From Amycolatopsis sp. FDAARGOS 1241 (GTDB lineage Bacteria; Actinomycetota; Actinomycetes; Mycobacteriales; Pseudonocardiaceae): a stretch of DNA of 64,000 nt. The notes under the pieces are model-generated. The model was not told the DNA's origin and made no database searches. It saw only the letters and a program-made list of their open reading frames with translations. The stretch covers positions 124,001-188,000 of the forward strand of contig NZ_CP069526.1 of assembly GCF_016889705.1 (NCBI RefSeq), given 5' to 3'. Of this stretch, positions 42,129 to 55,930 are shown piece after piece (position 1 is the stretch's first letter; each line of letters opens with the position of its first letter). Both the position numbers and the translations under genes were made by a program.

Positions 42129-42204
42129 GCCGCTATAGCTCAGCTGGTAGAGCATCTGTCTTGTAAACAGAAGGTCAGGGGTTCGAGCCCCCTTGGCGGC
42201 TCCA
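42129..42204 (+). tRNA. tRNA-Thr (anticodon TGT)
   Basis: Folds as a complete cloverleaf: acceptor GCCGCTA/TGGCGGC, D-arm GCTCAGCTGGTAGAGC, anticodon arm TCTGT-CTTGTAA-ACAGA, T-arm AGGGG-TTCGAGC-CCCCT and encoded CCA. The TGT anticodon reads ACA. The gene directly precedes a gene-poor accessory stretch, a common integration point. Confidence 0.97.
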
Positions 42205-42370
42205 TTGCTGACCAGGGAGTTTCCCGTTGTGGAAATCTCCCTGGTCCGTTCCGTCTCAGTTGTCGTTCCAAGCGGCTACCGGTGGCTTTCCCCCGTCGTC
42301 TCCGGGCGGTCCGCCGAGCTGCGTAGCAAATGTCACACGCCGGCCGGGGTTATGCGCTAGAACAGAGCCC

Positions 42371-44224
42371 ATGGTCGCGCCCGCGTTCGACGCCTACGGC
42401 TACTCAGTTTTCGCGAGCGGCGCGAGCACCGATCGGTTCGTGGTGCTCAACGACGCGCCGTTGGGTGAAGGTGACGGTGCCGACCTGCTGGAGACGACTC
42501 CGGTCGCGCGCGGGCTCGCCGACCTCATCGTGGCGTCGCGTGCCGCCGCGCCGTTCGCGCTGGCCGTGGACGCCGCCTGGGGCATGGGGAAAAGCAGCTT
42601 GATGCGCAAGCTGGAGTCGACGCTGGCCGCCGAACCGGCGGTGTCGGTGGTGTGGTTCAACGCGTGGACGTCGGGGCAGGCCAGCGCGCTCGAGGGACTG
42701 ATCAAGTCCGTGCTGTTGCGCTTCGACCGCAACCTCGTGCGGCGGGCCGTGCGGTCGATCCAGCGGCGGACCCACCTGCTGGGGGTGCTGCGGGCGGCCG
42801 CGTTGGTGTCGGGCAGCGTGTTCGGTCTCGGTCGTCTCGTCGACGAGATCTGGCGGGCGCTGTCGGTCGATGCCCGGTCCCGCAACCAGATGAAGGGCGT
42901 GCTGCGCGACCTGTTCGCCGCGTGGCTGGCCAAGGGCGAGCGGGCGGGTGATCGCCGGCTGCTCGTGGTGTTCGTCGACGACCTCGACCGGTGCGCGGCC
43001 GAGCGCATCGTCGAGGTGTGCGAGGCGATCAAGCTGTACCTCGACGTGCCGGGCGTCGTGTTCGTGCTGGCCTGCGACCAGGCAGTGCTGTGGAAGGCCG
43101 TGCAGGGTTCGGCGCCCGAGGGCGAGCCGGCGGGTGCGGTCGAGTACCTGGAGAAGATCATCCAGATCAACTACCGGATCCCGCCGCCGAGTGCGGCTTC
43201 GGCGCTGCGGCTGGTCGACGGTTACCTGGAGCTGTCGCGGACCGCGGGCCTGTTCGACGACTCGATGAAGAGCGTGATCATCGAACGCTCCGGGCGGAAC
43301 CCGCGGCGGATCAAGCGGCTCATCAACAGTTTCGTGCTGGAGTACCACCTGAACCGGTCGTGGGACGAGCTCGGCGTCGCGAACCTCGTCCGGGTGGTGC
43401 TGCTGCAGCACTTCTACCCGACCTTCTACAGCATCCTCGTCAGCCCGCGCGAGGCGGACCCGATCCGGGACTTCCTGCGCTACCAGGAGTTCCGCGCGAA
43501 GGTCCGCCACGGCGAGACCGAGGACCGGCACGACTGGCGGGAACTGTTCGCGGACAAGCGACTCCGGCCACCCGATGCCGCCCAGGCGTCGCTCACCGAG
43601 TCGCTCGCCGAGCTCGAACGCGAGCTGCCGGCCCAGTTCCCGCTGCTGGCGGCCGACCGCGACTTCGTCGCCCTGCTCGAAAGCCTCGACGGGCCCGCCA
43701 ATTCGGACCAGTTCCGGCGGCTCCTGCGCAAGCCGCTGACCGGTGGCCCCGCGCTGCCCCTGCCAGACCCGGCGGACGTGGCGCTGTTCGCACAACCGCG
43801 GCAACCCCTGACGGCGACCGGCCGCGACGTCGATCTCGCCGGCGTGCGCGTGCTGTGGATCGACGACAACCCGGTCAGCAACCGCCGGGTGATCGAGCGC
43901 CTGTCGAATTCCGGGGCCATCGTGACGACGGCGACGGACCGCACGGCGGCCGTCGCGGCACTGCGTGAGGGCGAACCCGACGTCATCCTCTCCGACTTCA
44001 CCCGCGACGGCTATCCCTTCACCGGCGTCGACGACGTGGCCTACTTCCGCGAGCACGACCTCTACCACGGGCCGGTGGTCTTCTGCTCCGGTCAGCGGCT
44101 CCCGCAGCTGCTCCGCCGCGTCGAAGAGCTCGACGCGATCGGCCCGACCAACGACGAGAACGAGATCGTCCGCTGGGTGGCGCGCATCGCGGCGGAGAAG
44201 GCCGCGGCACGCACGCGCGACTAG
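42371..44224 (+). CDS. KAP-type P-loop NTPase fused to a C-terminal receiver-like domain
   Basis: A 617-residue protein. Walker A WGMGKSSL at 70-77 and Walker B DDLDRC at 203-208 (LLVVFVDDLDRC) fit the KAP NTPase family, whose bacterial members often have membrane segments between the two motifs; here only a weak hydrophobic segment lies near 135-157. Residues about 210-470 are helical, with NPRRIKRLINSF. From about 490 a response-regulator-like domain follows: Asp498/Asp499 (VLWIDDNP) and a possible phosphoacceptor Asp542 (VILSDFTRDG). No conserved Lys is clear. The KAP-plus-receiver plan is unusual. It starts 166 bases after tRNA-Thr. Function is not assigned. Confidence 0.88.
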   Translation: MVAPAFDAYGYSVFASGASTDRFVVLNDAPLGEGDGADLLETTPVARGLADLIVASRAAAPFALAVDAAWGMGKSSLMRKLESTLAAEPAVSVVWFNAWTSGQASALEGLIKSVLLRFDRNLVRRAVRSIQRRTHLLGVLRAAALVSGSVFGLGRLVDEIWRALSVDARSRNQMKGVLRDLFAAWLAKGERAGDRRLLVVFVDDLDRCAAERIVEVCEAIKLYLDVPGVVFVLACDQAVLWKAVQGSAPEGEPAGAVEYLEKIIQINYRIPPPSAASALRLVDGYLELSRTAGLFDDSMKSVIIERSGRNPRRIKRLINSFVLEYHLNRSWDELGVANLVRVVLLQHFYPTFYSILVSPREADPIRDFLRYQEFRAKVRHGETEDRHDWRELFADKRLRPPDAAQASLTESLAELERELPAQFPLLAADRDFVALLESLDGPANSDQFRRLLRKPLTGGPALPLPDPADVALFAQPRQPLTATGRDVDLAGVRVLWIDDNPVSNRRVIERLSNSGAIVTTATDRTAAVAALREGEPDVILSDFTRDGYPFTGVDDVAYFREHDLYHGPVVFCSGQRLPQLLRRVEELDAIGPTNDENEIVRWVARIAAEKAAARTRD

Positions 44225-44428
44225 CGCTGGACCGATGGCTGTCGCGTTCAAGGCGAACGTTCCCCGGTGCGATCGCGCTGAGCGGGCGGCGCTCGACGCG
44301 CTCCCATCCGGCCAGACCGTCGAGTTTCCGGGGCCCCGCAGTGCTCCCCGAAAATCGGGCGGATATGCCTGACCAGCGGCGATCATTCGTTGTCGGCCCG
44401 GAATCTTCAGCGGCAAGTACCGCGGTCC

Positions 44429-45121
44429 CTACCCAGGCAGTGGTGATGTCATCGTGGACGGAGCGGACCAGTTCTCAGTGTGTCCGATGAACATTTCGGC
44501 GACGTCGACGGGCCACCGGGGCTTGTCCACGACGTCGAACTCGGCGCAATACTCCAAAGGACTGGCCGTGGGGTGGGCACGGGGATGGCTCGCGACCTCG
44601 GCGAACTCAGCGACGACAAGGCCGAACATGGCGGCGCTGCCAGTGAGGAACAGCGTCCCAGCGTGCACGTGGTGCACGAAGCGGTCGCGATTCTCGCGGT
44701 GCCGGAGCTGGGGATAGTCCTGATCGAGGCGGGTCCGCACTGCTTCGTCAGGCAGGCCGACGGTCTGTGGGTGACCAGCGCCGAGGCTTCGCGGGATCCT
44801 CGGCCACGCCGAGGGCCGTAGGTGGAGCGAGTGGTGAACGAGGACCACATCCAACGCGGGCAGGTCAGCTTGCCGGTGCGAGTCGGTGTCCAGAGCGTTG
44901 CCCCGAAGGGGAAAGTAGAAGATCGAGCGCGGTGATCGGGCTGCCAACTCCCAGAGGCCGGCGAACTGTCTCGCCGTTGCCTGGTCCAGGCGTAGGTGGA
45001 AGCACGTGCGCGCATCGCGCAGTGTCGCGTGCAGGGGTCTGGGTCGCGGTTGGACGATCCGGTACTGCCTGGCGCCGAGCCGGACCTGGTGCCTGGTCAC
45101 GCGAAGTTTCACCGCCGCCAC
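44429..45121 (-). CDS. Hypothetical protein, unknown function
   Basis: A 230-residue protein read from GTG at 45121 (or 45112), with high GC3 through most of its length. Segments such as SPRSIFYFPLRGN, LDVVLVHHSL, RTRLDQDYPQLRHRENRDRF and FGLVVAEFAEVASHP look like a globular cytosolic protein. No known family was recognised. It is overlapped at its 5' end by the stop of a 52-residue upstream gene. The 204 bases from 44225 to 44428, after the KAP gene stop, hold nothing. Confidence 0.6.
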   Translation of the reverse strand: MAAVKLRVTRHQVRLGARQYRIVQPRPRPLHATLRDARTCFHLRLDQATARQFAGLWELAARSPRSIFYFPLRGNALDTDSHRQADLPALDVVLVHHSLHLRPSAWPRIPRSLGAGHPQTVGLPDEAVRTRLDQDYPQLRHRENRDRFVHHVHAGTLFLTGSAAMFGLVVAEFAEVASHPRAHPTASPLEYCAEFDVVDKPRWPVDVAEMFIGHTENWSAPSTMTSPLPG

Positions 45122-45267
45122 ACGGCGATGGCGTCGTACCCGCTCTCCGCGTTCTCGGCGGTGTGCGTCGGATCGCTGGCACGCGACACCGCACAGATCG
45201 TCCTCAAGCTTGGGAACCAATCGCCCGCGACCGACCTCAGGTAACCAGAATTCTTCCGCGCTTCCAT
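45109..45267 (-). CDS. Small hypothetical protein (52 residues)
   Basis: ATG at 45267, stop at 45109-45111, 52 residues beginning MEARKNSGYLRSVAGD and ending GYDAIAVWRR. Almost every third base is G or C, better than the two other minus frames here, so real coding is likely. The TGA overlaps the downstream GTG, suggesting translational coupling. It might also be the true N-terminus of the next protein separated by a frameshift. Function unknown. Confidence 0.5.
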   Translation of the reverse strand: MEARKNSGYLRSVAGDWFPSLRTICAVSRASDPTHTAENAESGYDAIAVWRR

Positions 45268-45577
45268 CGCCGGATCGTCCCATGACTGCGCAGGCCCAGC
45301 GCCTGCACCGCGTCACCGGATCCGTCACCGTCGAATCCGCCGCCCCGCCACCATGAGCCGGGGCAGGGGAGACCGCCGTGACCCAGGTGGATGTCCTGTC
45401 TCGCTGAAGCCTTCACCGGACTGGGAGGCGTCACGGCAGGTGAGTGGGTAGGCGTCGGTGAGTGTCAGTGGCGCTGGGCCGAGGGTGATGCCCGACCTCG
45501 GTGTAGGACAGATTCCGCGGTGCGCGTCGGGCCGGCCGAGATGGGCGGGCGCTTCGGCCTTCGGGCGGCTGAAGCGG

Positions 45578-45923
45578 GTGGCCCGCGACGAACCACCGGG
45601 GATCCGCGTCACGCGGTGGCTGCTGTGGCTGCAGGTCGCGAGCTGCCTTCTGATCGCGGGCTTCGCCGCGGCTGGGTTCGTCGACAGCGGCGGCTGGTGG
45701 AGCGTGCTCCTCGGCTTCATCGTGGTGTTCGACGTGGTTCCCGCGGCGTGTGCCGGGGCGATCGGGAACGGCCCGCGGCGGGTGCTGCGCAGCGTGCTGA
45801 CGCTCAGCATGGGGATCGCGCTGCTCTTCGGGGATACTTTTCGTGAATCCGTCGTGGGTGCTCGCCGGGACGCAGTTGCGGCGTCGGCCGGGCGACGAGG
45901 AAGAGGCCTGGTTCGACGCCTGA
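45578..45923 (+). pseudogene. Small membrane protein, frameshifted
   Basis: From GTG at 45578 (start tentative) it reads RDEPPGIRVTRWLLWLQVA with three hydrophobic segments (LLIAGFAAAGFV, LLGFIVVFDVVP, LTLSMGIALLFG). Near 45834-45842 the frame shifts by one base, after which FVNPSWVLAGTQLRRRPGDE ends at TGA 45921. The restored protein would be about 114 residues. Function unknown; may be a base error. Nothing recognisable lies in 45268-45577 or 45924-46178. Confidence 0.6.
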
Positions 45924-46178
45924 GCGATCCTGAAGACCCCCAGGCTGGGCGCGGTGGACGACGAGCAGGTGGTTGGCGGCCTTGCCTCAACTGCGAAAAC
46001 AGTGGTGTGAACCTTTGCAGACAGCGCTGTGGTCGGCCGTGCCGCGTGCGGGTGCGGTACTCGGTCTGCCGGCACGAGTCCGAGCGGAAAGGGGTGGGGC
46101 GCCAGAGCTTTTCGTCGGCTGTGGGATGTTGAGCGGGGAACGCAAGCCGCCGGTATTGAGAGGAACGAGGGGCTGCGC

Positions 46179-47600
46179 ATGACGTCTCCGCAGGTTGAGG
46201 CCGGTCCTGTCACTGGCCGGGCCGACCCGGTCAGCGTTGACCGGACCAATCCTCTGTTCGACGCGCGGACTGTCCCGCCGAAGCCGCACACGGACCCGCC
46301 GCCGCTACGGCAGGAGTACGTCGAGGCGGCCACGAGCGCGCCGACTGCTCTCACCAACCGGGCTGAGCCGCCCCGCTCGACCGACCGGACCGCTGCCGTG
46401 TCGTCCGTCGACCAGCCCGGCGACCGGTCCGGCGACCGGCCCGCCCGGCAGCCGACTGCAGAAGTGCCGGCCGAGCCGTCACCCGCGGCTGTCCCCGTGG
46501 AGACGCGCGAGCGCCGGACGGGCTGGCGCGCCTCCGTTGGCGGGGCCATCGTCACGCTGGGCCTGGTGGCCGCCGTAGCGCTGGCTCTGGTCGTCGCGCT
46601 GCGGTTGCTCAACGCGGCCCCGGGCTGGCTCGCGTGGCTCACCGAGGGCCCGGGCTGGTGGCACGCCCTGATCCCGGTCGGCGGTGCGGTGCTGGTGCTG
46701 CTCGCGGTCGGCGGCGCGCTGGTGGCACTGGCGCCGAAGCGCACCGTGGAGGTTCAGCCGGGTTCGCCGCTGCACGCCAAGGGCTGGTACGCGATGTTCG
46801 CCGGGGCGCTGTTCCTGTCCGGCGACACGTCCGCCCGGTACTTCACGCAGGTGCTGCACTTCCACCCGTGGGAGACCGCGGTCGTCTTCCTGCTCATCGA
46901 AATCGGCCTGCTGTCGGCCGCACTGGAGATGCGCGACATCCTCACCCGGCCCGACGGTGAACGAGCCGGCCTCGGCAAGGCCCGAGCGCTCCTGTGGACG
47001 CTGTTCGGCGGCCAGGCCATCGTCGCGGTGGCGCTCAACATCGACCCGCGCGAGCTGGTCGTGCGGCTGGTCTTCGCCGGGTTCGGCCTGCTGGCGATCC
47101 ACCAGGCCCTCGGCGTCGACGTCCGCGAAGCCCGCCGCCACAGCGGCACGACCGGCGAGCTGTCCTACTTCGGCCGCTTGCTGCGCGAGCTGCGCGACGC
47201 AGCGCTGTCCTGGACCGGGCTGGGCGAGCCGGAGCGCGACGCGCTGCAACGTCGCCGCGAGCGGGCCGCCGACCGGTACGCCCGGCTGTTGAGCGAGGGC
47301 AAACCCCAGGGCGACGGCAAGCACCGGTGGTCGGCCGCGGCGCGGTGGACGCGCAACGTGCGTCGCGCCCGCCGGCGCGCGAACCTGCACGACCCCACGC
47401 AGCAGGAACGCGTGGTCCGCGTGATGCAGCACGAGCGCGCGGACGATGAGCTGATGAACGCTCGCCTCCCGAAGCTGTTCGACCTGCCGGCCACGCCGGG
47501 GGCCTCGGCTGCGGCCGATGTCGACAAGGCGGCGGGCGACCAGCCGGGCGAGCAACCGAACGCCTGGTGGCACGCGGCAGGTGGACCGGCCGCGCGATGA
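46179..47600 (+). CDS. Large membrane protein of unknown function
   Basis: A 473-residue protein. Residues 1-120 are Pro/Thr/Arg rich and disordered. Then four to six membrane segments: VGGAIVTLGLVAAVALALVV, ALIPVGGAVLVLLAVGGALV, a FAGALFLSGDTSARYF block, ETAVVFLLIEIGLLSAAL and ALLWTLFGGQAIVAVALNI. The last 150 residues are basic and charged (RRRERAADRYARLLSEGK, then a helical tail) and probably cytosolic. No recognised family. It resembles in plan some conjugation or phage membrane proteins, but nothing specific supports that. Confidence 0.72.
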   Translation: MTSPQVEAGPVTGRADPVSVDRTNPLFDARTVPPKPHTDPPPLRQEYVEAATSAPTALTNRAEPPRSTDRTAAVSSVDQPGDRSGDRPARQPTAEVPAEPSPAAVPVETRERRTGWRASVGGAIVTLGLVAAVALALVVALRLLNAAPGWLAWLTEGPGWWHALIPVGGAVLVLLAVGGALVALAPKRTVEVQPGSPLHAKGWYAMFAGALFLSGDTSARYFTQVLHFHPWETAVVFLLIEIGLLSAALEMRDILTRPDGERAGLGKARALLWTLFGGQAIVAVALNIDPRELVVRLVFAGFGLLAIHQALGVDVREARRHSGTTGELSYFGRLLRELRDAALSWTGLGEPERDALQRRRERAADRYARLLSEGKPQGDGKHRWSAAARWTRNVRRARRRANLHDPTQQERVVRVMQHERADDELMNARLPKLFDLPATPGASAAADVDKAAGDQPGEQPNAWWHAAGGPAAR

Positions 47601-47688
47601 GAAGCCGAGGCAGGGACCGAGGCCGGCGTCATGACAAGCATGCCGCCGGCGGCTGACCGGGCCGGCGAGAGCGCCGTGCCCGGGCTGG

Positions 47689-48171
47689 TCAGGCGGAGAC
47701 CGGCCGCCACTGCTCGGCGAGGGGCTTGCCCGGCAGCGGCTTGCCGAGCACTGCCAGGGGCACCAAGAAGGTGACCTGGCCGATCGCCATCGTCAGCGTG
47801 GCCAGCGCCTTGTCGTCGTAGTGCGTCGCCACCCGGGCGTAGAGCTCGTCGGAGACTCGCTCTCCGTGCGTCGAGGGCTGCAGCACGGCCTCCACCAGCG
47901 CGAGCGCCGCGCGCTCGGGCTCGGTGAAGTACGGCGCGTCCGGCCAGGTCGCGACGGCGGTGATCCGCTCCTCGGGCTCCCCGGTCCTGCGCAGGGTGCC
48001 GGTGTGCAGCACGGTCAGGTGGGTGTTGCCGACGATCTGACCCGCGCGCAGCTGCATCAGCGCGATTGTGGCCCGCGGCACCGAGCCGTTGCCGGTGACC
48101 TTGAACAACGCCGCCGTCAGCTCCCGCAGTTCGGGGATCAGGTCCAGCGGGTTGGGCAGCCGTGATTGCAT
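47689..48171 (-). CDS. Carboxymuconolactone decarboxylase/AhpD-fold protein lacking the CxxC pair
   Basis: A 160-residue CMD-fold protein. ATG at 48171 is used because GGAGGAGAAC sits just upstream. The AhpD-like helix reads RAGQIVGNTHLTVLHTGTLRR: the usual CxxC peroxidase pair (GCxYC) is replaced by VGNT with no Cys. The later DDKALATLTMAIGQVTFLVPL is the second family helix. It would therefore not work as a thiol peroxidase; a decarboxylase-like or structural role is possible. Confidence 0.78.
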   Translation of the reverse strand: MQSRLPNPLDLIPELRELTAALFKVTGNGSVPRATIALMQLRAGQIVGNTHLTVLHTGTLRRTGEPEERITAVATWPDAPYFTEPERAALALVEAVLQPSTHGERVSDELYARVATHYDDKALATLTMAIGQVTFLVPLAVLGKPLPGKPLAEQWRPVSA

Positions 48172-48396
48172 GTTCTCCTCCATCACTTCGTGTTTCCCGG
48201 TGTCCGGAGCGATGACGGACCGCGGCACGGCGATGTGACCGCGACAATCGGCGCGCTGGTGGGACGCCGCGAACAGGCGAGCTTCAGCTGCTCCTGCTTC
48301 GTGCGAGCCGGAAAGCCGACCACGCCCGGGAACTTGCCGCCGGCACGGGCATCGAGCGACGCGAGCGCGCGCGACCAGTCGCGGTCGTGGTCGTCC

Positions 48397-49565
48397 TCAG
48401 TGGACTGAACCGCGGCCGGCCCGGTCGCGCACCGTGTCGCTCACCGCGACCGCCAGTACCACCAGCATGATCACGAACGACAGCACGAGCTGGGTCGCCA
48501 CCAGGGAAGCCGGCACCAGTACAGCCAGCCCGCACAGGCCGGCGAGCCGCGAGACCACCCAGCGTCCCGAGACCGTCCGCTGGAAGAACAGGTGACCGGC
48601 GAGGAACAATCCCGGGCCCAGCAGGGAAACGGCCGCCGTGACGGGCGTGAGGTGGCGGTGCGGCTCGGCGATCGTCAGCTCGTCCGCGACCGCCGTGACG
48701 ATGATGCCCGCGACCATCGGGATGTGCAGGTACGTGTACGCCGTGCGCCCGATTCACGCGGGGTCCGCGGACGCGGCGATCGCCTCCGCGCCGAAGTGGG
48801 CTGAGCGGTCGAAGTACGTCCACCACAGCGCCACGCACGTCAGGAAAGCGACGATCAGCGCCGCCACCGCGGACGCCGAGAAGCGCTGAGAGGCGAATGC
48901 CGTCCCGGTGACCACCACGGACTCGCCAGCGCAATGATCACGAACAGGTGGCAGCGTTCGGCCATGTGCGAACCGGTGATCACGCGGTCGGCCGTGCCGG
49001 ACTTGCCGAGCCCCGGCACGTGGAATCCCGTGAGCGGCCCGACGTTGTCCACGATCACCGCGGCGAGCCACCGGAGGTCGCGCGCCGGACCGTCCACAGT
49101 GGCGCCCGCGAGCCACAGGGCACCGGAGGCGCAGAGCCACACGGTGATGCGCTGGAACGTCCGCCGCAGCGTCGCGTCGCGCCGGCTGCGCCACAGCGCG
49201 GCGAGCGTGCGGCCGATCTGCATCAGCACGTAGCCGCCCGCGAACCAGAACCCGCGATCGCCGAACGCGCCGGGCACGCCCGCGGCTGCGACGAGGCTGA
49301 CGAGCATCGTGGCGATCAGCACGGCGCGCACCGGCAGGACTTCGGGGTCCAACCAGTTCGTCAGCCACGTCGAGTACATCCACGCCTGCCACACCGCGAG
49401 CAGCACGAGCGCCGCGTGGAACGCGCCGCGCCCGCTCAGGTCGCCCAGCAGCAGGTGGGAGATCTGCGTGACGGCGTAGACGTAGACGAGGTCGAAGAAC
49501 AGCTCGACGAACGTGACCTCGGTGGCGTCCTCGGCCCGTGCCCGCAGGTAGCGAGAGGTGATCAC
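48397..49565 (-). pseudogene. Low temperature requirement A (LtrA) family membrane protein, broken
   Basis: From GTG 49565 the N-terminal half is intact: VTSRYLRARAEDATEV-like start and EVTFVELFFDLVYVYAVTQI, followed by several membrane segments. Near 48925 a missing base shifts CHLFVIIALA to ESVVVTGTAFASQRFS, and at 48754-48756 a TGA interrupts the reading before IGRTAYTYLHIPMVAGIIV, which then continues in frame. So one frameshift and one nonsense codon. Its start overlaps the TetR stop by four bases (GTGA). Confidence 0.8.
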
Positions 49566-55301: not shown

Positions 55302-55930
55302 TCCGCTTCTGCGTCATCGACGACCACGAGGTCGTCCACGACGGCCTGCGCGCCATGGCCGACCGCGAACCGGATCTCGAGTTCCTCGGCGGCGCCACGA
55401 CCGTCCCGGACGGCGAGCACCTCGTCGAGCGGGTCCACCCCGCCGTCGCCATCCTCGACCTCCGCATCGGCGAGCGCGACGGCGGCAACGGGATCGACCT
55501 GTGCCGCACGTTGCACTCGCGCTACCCGTCGATGTCAGTGGTGCTGTTCAGCGCGTACGGCAACGGGGAACTGCTCGCACAGGCCATCGCCGCGGGCGCT
55601 GCGGGCTACATGCTCAAGGAGACGTCCGTCGGCCGCGTGCCGGGCATCCTGCGGGAGATCACGACGAGCGGGAGCTGGTTCGAACCGCGCATTGCCAGCG
55701 AACTCCTGCAACGGCGCGCGGGCGGCTCCGCGCCGGGCGCCTTCAGCGCTCAGGAACTGGAGATCGTGCGCGGTATCAGCCGGGGTGAGAACAACCACGA
55801 GATCGGTGAACAGCTGCACATCAGCCCGCACACGGTGAAGTACCACATCGCGTCGATGCTGCGCCGCCACGAGGTGCACCGCCGGGCGGAACTGGTGCGG
55901 CTGGCTTCGGACCTGCATTTGCTGGAGTGA
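55298..55930 (+). CDS. NarL/LuxR-type response regulator
   Basis: A 210-residue regulator. Receiver with acidic pair CVIDDHEVV, phosphoacceptor Asp54 (VAILDLRIGE), the conserved Lys in YMLKETSVG, and a LuxR-type HTH (FSAQELEIVRGISRGENNHE and LHISPHTVKYHIASML). GTG overlaps the kinase stop codon. Target genes not identified; the adjacent divergent region holds nothing obvious. Confidence 0.93.
   Translation: MIRFCVIDDHEVVHDGLRAMADREPDLEFLGGATTVPDGEHLVERVHPAVAILDLRIGERDGGNGIDLCRTLHSRYPSMSVVLFSAYGNGELLAQAIAAGAAGYMLKETSVGRVPGILREITTSGSWFEPRIASELLQRRAGGSAPGAFSAQELEIVRGISRGENNHEIGEQLHISPHTVKYHIASMLRRHEVHRRAELVRLASDLHLLE

Follow-up and report, generated by a model that had tools for sequence, protein, structure and literature searches.

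A KAP NTPase joined to a lysine-less receiver domain in Amycolatopsis: a candidate mobile conflict protein

The KAP-REC gene and its product

A stretch of 64,000 nucleotides from Amycolatopsis sp. FDAARGOS 1241 (contig NZ_CP069526.1, positions 124,001 to 188,000; hereafter the window) was analysed around a gene designated KAP-REC (42371..44224), which encodes a protein of 617 amino acids (P0001) that joins a KAP NTPase to a C-terminal receiver domain. Unless stated otherwise, features are on the forward strand. The gene starts 166 bp past a tRNA-Thr (TGT) gene (42129..42204; found with ARAGORN), which forms the left border of an accessory stretch. A promoter-like TAGAAC (42358..42363) ends 7 bp before the ATG and, when spacing was compared among loci, was observed at the same distance from the start in L041 and L040; TATAAA lies 7 bp (L013) and 6 bp (L017) ahead of the start codon, and neither motif was found at the start in L012, L014, L015 or L016. 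In the copies bearing one of the two motifs, this arrangement suggests a leaderless transcript made from the gene's own promoter.

The KAP P-loop NTPase domain spans residues 44-325 (42500..43345; Pfam PF07693, E 2.3e-36, above the cut-off). In an alignment of 56 homologs, residues G71, G73, K74 and S75 of the Walker A motif (DAAWGMGKS, residues 67-75; 42569..42595) were invariant, as were F201, D203, D204, L205, D206, R207 and C208 of the Walker B motif (FVDDLDRC, residues 201-208; 42971..42994) and, in addition, D236. The complete KAP NTPase read from the sequence in an earlier annotation of this DNA (the original prediction) is thus borne out, and because both motifs and D236 are invariant the ATPase is predicted to be active. 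A helical insertion precedes Walker B (residues 106-188; 42686..42934; AlphaFold2 helices and hydropathy), its helices at 131-170 being modelled with low confidence (predicted local distance difference test, pLDDT, 54-68). It includes a moderately hydrophobic stretch at residues 136-154 (19-residue mean 1.69, against a family median of 1.62, n=120); KAP proteins may carry transmembrane segments inserted in the P-loop domain. A further helical region follows the KAP domain (residues 326-450; 43346..43720; AlphaFold2). The model as a whole has a mean pLDDT of 85.1, with confident KAP and receiver parts and a low-confidence linker between them near residues 460-472.

The C-terminus (residues 491-613, approximately; 43841..44209), which had been described as receiver-like, matched Pfam Response_reg at residues 494-589 (E 1.5e-7, above the cut-off) and adopts a true, standard receiver fold in the modelled structure. 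Among 110 single-receiver homologs the acidic pair D498/D499 (43862..43867) is aspartate in 106 and 105 sequences respectively, the phosphoacceptor-position residue D542 (43994..43996) in 104, and residue 573 is Ser or Thr in 87. It was observed that none of the 110 has a lysine at positions 590-596, a region where all four control response regulators do (their lysines align with residue 595); T593, in this switch-lysine region (44147..44149), is Thr in 91. R545, three residues past the phosphoacceptor position (D+3; 44003..44005), is Arg in 104 of the 110 and in none of the four control receivers. On these alignments, Arg at D+3 together with Thr in the lysine region marks a receiver subtype, here termed SDxxR/Thr.

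Distribution of the family and exchange of the C-terminal module

A protein search with E values up to 1e-3 as the limit returned 816 proteins; the 120 best of these and the query were examined (121 in total), their C-terminal modules being scored by profiles built from the KAP-REC family itself. One receiver was found in 110 proteins, two receivers in 3, a YacP/Rae1-like RNase (NYN) domain in 5 and neither module in 3. The NYN domain stands in the place of the receiver in one clade (e.g. P0047), and among solved structures it matches Rae1 most closely. Structure prediction and a survey of homologs, named in the original prediction as the tests by which the fusion could fail, gave a receiver fold and a KAP-receiver combination kept in 113 of 121 homologs, a count which includes divergent receivers invisible to Pfam (e.g. 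P0121). Many family proteins bear the database name 'CheY-like chemotaxis protein' or 'response regulator'.

Genomes were searched with few candidates scored per genome, and all genome tallies are lower bounds. At least 9 of 80 Amycolatopsis genomes matched at 1e-20, at least 15 of 397 genomes of the order at 1e-30 and at least 2 of 396 of the phylum at 1e-40, the source genome being counted each time. The nine Amycolatopsis matches comprise four intact KAP-REC genes (G000, G058, G040, G065), two copies split across two frames (G010, G069) and three genes with other KAP architectures (G077, G053, G007). By sequence, KAP-REC is an established, patchy actinobacterial family.

Several further observations concern individual relatives. 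At L041 (9413-11268) and L042 (9727-11408), each from a different Amycolatopsis genome, KAP-REC is split between two frames; such splits would be expected if the gene is dispensable or the assembly faulty. In another Amycolatopsis genome a distant cousin (L009, 1450-3195) joins a KAP NTPase to a C-terminal TIR domain (E 2.5e-19). At L007 (121-2880), Clp_N and AAA chaperone-type domains stand ahead of a KAP part that shares 42% identity with the query, and a receiver is lacking; on a Streptomyces plasmid (L052, 10001-11400) a KAP protein with 45% identity over residues 21-439 stops thereafter, with neither receiver nor NYN domain. At L038 (1249-2817) the final part of a KAP NTPase is the C-terminal domain of ribosomal L7/L12 (E 2.3e-14); together with P0047, whose end is Rae1-like, it hints that some KAP proteins are linked to the ribosome.

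The accessory stretch and transfer of the gene

Comparison of the window with the corresponding locus of a second Amycolatopsis genome, G010 (blastn against L062), identified a stretch of 42205..48590 (no strand assigned) that is missing from the tRNA-Thr locus of the latter. Within about 50 bp of its tRNA-Thr, G010 resumes with an 80-bp match (75%) to window positions 48591-48670, followed by 55628-55922 at 70% and by strong collinearity from 56303 at 86%; the 80-bp match is weak, which leaves the right border uncertain, and the stretch may reach 55627. Since the G010 locus skips it, the block bearing the KAP gene is read as an accessory insertion in the window. The tRNA-Thr follows a ThrE gene in G010 (with an NlpC/P60 gene between), G068 and G058, the latter two having other content after it, and a tRNA match (84%) in G059 lies in reverse orientation.

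G010 does carry a KAP-REC copy with 90% DNA identity, in an unrelated place and split into two frames. The DNA common to the window and this copy (42337-44211) consists of the gene and 34 bp upstream, without flanks, and a locus of G058 (L040) likewise shares only 42353-44176 with the window, at 74%. These comparisons support horizontal acquisition of KAP-REC, which had been suggested from its position beside a tRNA gene.

Candidate vehicles were also considered. A phage-borne gene was rejected: two weak KAP matches were found in 50,697 phage records, and viral contigs gave 14 KAP-only matches with 23-36% identity. A plasmid-borne gene fared similarly, none of 20 matching records covering 80% of the query (the best was the Streptomyces plasmid L052). 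Apart from its own location, the tRNA with its 26 following bases matched nothing in the window over more than 13 bp, so that an integrase-type element with a tRNA-derived attachment repeat is unsupported. Base composition was uninformative as a sign of transfer.

The ratio of nonsynonymous to synonymous change (dN/dS) against the G010 pieces rose from 0.17 (residues 1-305) through 0.35 (residues 322-470) to 0.43 (receiver); in the comparison with L040, the KAP part gave 0.31 and the receiver 0.55. On these two comparisons the receiver is the fastest-changing part of the protein, its aspartates nonetheless being kept.

The same receiver subtype in other proteins

A genome scan gave three loci matched by the receiver alone, all in metagenome-assembled genomes (MAGs) of Saprospiraceae, and a receiver-only search of full-length proteins gave three matches; among short proteins a search by profile gave 56, many of them bearing CheY-like names. 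With the receiver profile, at least 10 of 296 actinobacterial genomes matched at 1e-12, at least 2 of 198 in the class of G845 at 1e-13 and at least 1 of 240 in the class of G1043 at 1e-15. Two of the ten actinobacterial matches exceeded 110 bits (the source genome and G639, both KAP-REC) and the other eight scored 49-56 bits; five of these eight were read in the correct frame, and of them L084 is lysine-less and L085, L086, L088 and L090 are ordinary receivers, the remaining three being L083, L087 and L089.

Five sequences (L024, L025, L084, L093, L095) were aligned to the family; none of the five has the lysine, and each carries Arg at D+3 and Thr in the 593 column. In L084 the acidic pair has N as its second residue instead of D, and the 573 column holds V in L024 and I in L093. 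Response_reg matches in L025, L084 and L093 were below the cut-off. L023, outside this alignment, has no Arg at the D+3 place, and L101, a receiver beside a separate hydrophobic open reading frame (ORF), is subtype-like by eye.

EAD and patatin are conflict-system domains. In a Saprospiraceae MAG, L093 (88-1863) joins a patatin phospholipase domain (E 3.2e-23) to a C-terminal lysine-less SDxxR receiver; in the same genome L023 (8831-9721) has a receiver beside a weak EAD11 match below the cut-off. Alongside its receiver, L025 (8444-12223) contains a peptidoglycan-binding domain, EAD11 (E 2.2e-12) and, as a weak match, a trypsin-like domain. These fusions are few cases, picked by score and set against no control set of ordinary receivers. 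Three short lysine-less receivers (L024, 9620-10357; L084, 1000-1947; L095, 1501-2274, reverse strand) have, by eye, a hydrophobic N-terminus which is probably a membrane anchor.

Neighbouring genes and the question of a kinase

Neighbours were compared at 20 loci, among which L012/L049 and L014/L043 each represent a single contig, and a pool of 86 neighbouring genes from 12 loci (84 of the 101 listed, plus two) was scanned. No specific partner common to unrelated loci was found among the 20; only same-place clusters and generic families recurred (ABC ATPases at 9 loci, AMP-dependent ligases at 5, Ser/Thr kinases at 2). As had been noted, no histidine kinase gene is adjacent to KAP-REC in the window, and none was among the best 25 of 135 Pfam families in the 12 neighbourhoods, which cover the families with at least two members. 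At L016 a LuxR-type regulator and a probable kinase, assigned by eye, lie 6.3 kb from the KAP gene.

A receiver is commonly taken to be the output of a histidine kinase, and the original proposal was an NTPase under phosphorylation control: an unlinked histidine kinase or a small phosphodonor would phosphorylate D542, turning the KAP ATPase on or off. The standard receiver fold, the roughly 95% conservation of D498/D499 and D542 across the 110 homologs and the Ser/Thr at 573 all fit such a switch, but the family-wide lack of a lysine that every control has does not, nor does the lack of any kinase recognised as conserved among the neighbours or the RNase-type domain that replaces the receiver in one clade. 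The patatin and EAD11 fusions of the subtype, in a few distant genomes, also weigh here, and we consider the switch unlikely.

Comparison with known systems

The closest solved fold to the ATPase part is RdrA of the RADAR system, ranked first for the models of both the query and the NYN form, at 12-14% identity; the insertion before Walker B resembles the crown insertion of RdrA in place. RdrA has a long helical C-terminus, whereas the KAP-REC family has a receiver or NYN domain there, and, unlike in RADAR, no partner gene is common to unrelated loci. No model named RdrA was among the matches at E values up to 1 to PADLOC, which includes one, and no deaminase was among the best 25 of 135 neighbour Pfam families, no search with a profile for RdrB itself having been made.

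Among named defence proteins the best sequence-profile match was QatA of qatABCD, which is likewise reported to consist of a KAP domain and a separate C-terminal domain; no qat model was among the best 25 of 37 PADLOC families in the neighbour pool. The PADLOC KAP models PifA and PDC-S20, both single-gene systems, matched the NTPase part (95 and 90 bits), their best matched stretches (28-354 and 194-280) ending ahead of the receiver.

Receivers without a histidine kinase, acting as effectors or switches, have been described alongside conflict-system NTPases in the ternary and iSTAND2 systems, in which KAP is named as a STAND substitute (PMC7159879, PMC8195603). KAP-REC likewise joins a receiver without an adjacent kinase to a conflict-type NTPase; the accessible text of these accounts describes no KAP-receiver fusion and no SDxxR/Thr subtype (PMC7159879, PMC8195603). 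Nor was a KAP-receiver fusion found described in the literature searched, which included PMC10907252, PMC13279940, PMC10853773, PMC11237479 and PMC9994260, most subscription papers and all preprints lying outside that search.

The cRec domains, divergent receivers with conserved aspartates as in KAP-REC, have been proposed to act independently of kinases and to process cyclic phosphates (PMC7824862), and by comparison the KAP-REC receiver might itself be the effector, an enzyme opening or removing phosphate esters. In its favour, the receiver occupies the position taken in other proteins by an RNase-type domain or by TIR. Response_reg was the only receiver model matched in Pfam at E values up to 1, cRec, for which Pfam holds a model, being absent from the matches, and no catalytic assay of any relative was found. 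cRec is linked to NAD/ADPr enzymes, and none was common to unrelated KAP-REC loci, although no profile search was aimed at them. Of the explanations weighed here, we regard this one as very improbable.

Interpretation

In the reading we prefer, to which we give an even chance, the KAP-REC gene is mobile and acts on its own, its product being a conflict protein, most likely directed against phages, whose C-terminal module can be exchanged. The analysis itself shows the domains, the conserved residues, the matches of fold, the exchange of modules and the flank-free transfer; ring assembly, trigger, ligand and immunity are inferred. The KAP part would be an ATPase like RdrA and QatA, forming a ring and assembling or changing its shape when infection is sensed, and the C-terminal slot would carry the module: in most members a lysine-less, probably Mg-binding receiver that needs no histidine kinase and most probably binds or processes a ligand, either a phosphate or a nucleotide, and in one clade the YacP/Rae1-like RNase domain.

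Several results weigh against this reading. The likeness to RdrA is at the level of fold only (Foldseek template modelling score 0.35, with Orc1/Cdc6 close behind), no RdrA was among the best 60 of 193 rows of a PDB profile search, and the QatA match reached 118.7 bits, the cut-off being 600. Deletion of QatA, moreover, is reported to have left defence against some phages intact. Some KAP relatives (L007, L052) stop after the KAP part and have no module, and we know of no toxic activity of a receiver. No defence-island context was found among the 86 neighbour genes of 12 loci, and the best 25 of 37 PADLOC families there were generic (mad3, with four members, and 24 models with two each, the latter probably being the two Ser/Thr kinases found by Pfam). 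Such generic neighbourhoods weaken the case for immunity by context, which rests instead on the relatives of the ATPase, its exchangeable end, the other fusions of the receiver and the patchy distribution; the anti-phage setting originally suggested is no more than plausible, in neighbourhoods unlike defence islands. Finally, KAP-REC occupies stable housekeeping places in several clades (genes named by eye): tsaE-tsaB/D in two genomes, sdh in three and a common site in four Actinopolyspora-like genomes. Lying between housekeeping genes there, the gene is not always mobile.

These stable loci would also suit a cellular, non-immune ATPase, engaged in membrane or stress organisation, whose pseudo-receiver serves dimerisation or partner recruitment only. 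The higher dN/dS of the receiver relative to the KAP part agrees with this, as do the hydrophobic stretch before Walker B, at a site where KAP proteins may have membrane segments, and the atypical orphan receivers known in Streptomyces (PMC4125116). Mg-site aspartates kept at about 95% would be unexpected of a mere binding surface, however, and patchiness, broken copies and flank-free transfer fit a dispensable conflict gene better; we judge this alternative improbable, to the same degree as the phosphorylation switch.

The mobile conflict protein may be taken a step further, in a form that we consider rather doubtful as a whole, only a little less so than these two alternatives. KAP-REC would then belong to single-gene immune ATPases in which the receiver, once a phosphorylation switch, now handles phosphates or nucleotides independently of any kinase, Arg at D+3 replacing the lost lysine; the same subtype would serve in patatin and EAD11 conflict proteins of other phyla, and the swap for a Rae1-like RNase would leave the ATPase unchanged. 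A subtype with the metal site intact, with no lysine anywhere in the family and with recurrence in conflict-type proteins would help to recognise kinase-independent receivers, and receiver and RNase-type domain on one ATPase form a natural pair for probing the role of the receiver, possibly in immunity.

Other genes in and near the accessory stretch

Downstream of KAP-REC, about 2.2 kb (44225-46397) lack a convincing gene before the next ORF, and two long ORFs there have no Pfam match. For the ORF at 46029-47600 the match, to a holin-like membrane protein, was very weak (E 0.006, below the cut-off); a stretch of DNA with 84% identity lies at another locus of G010. Close to where the insertion may end on the right, an LtrA (low-temperature-requirement A) gene is apparently split (48397-48717 and 48855-49565, reverse strand), the first piece matching the end of the profile only; two genes of the neighbour pool also match LtrA.
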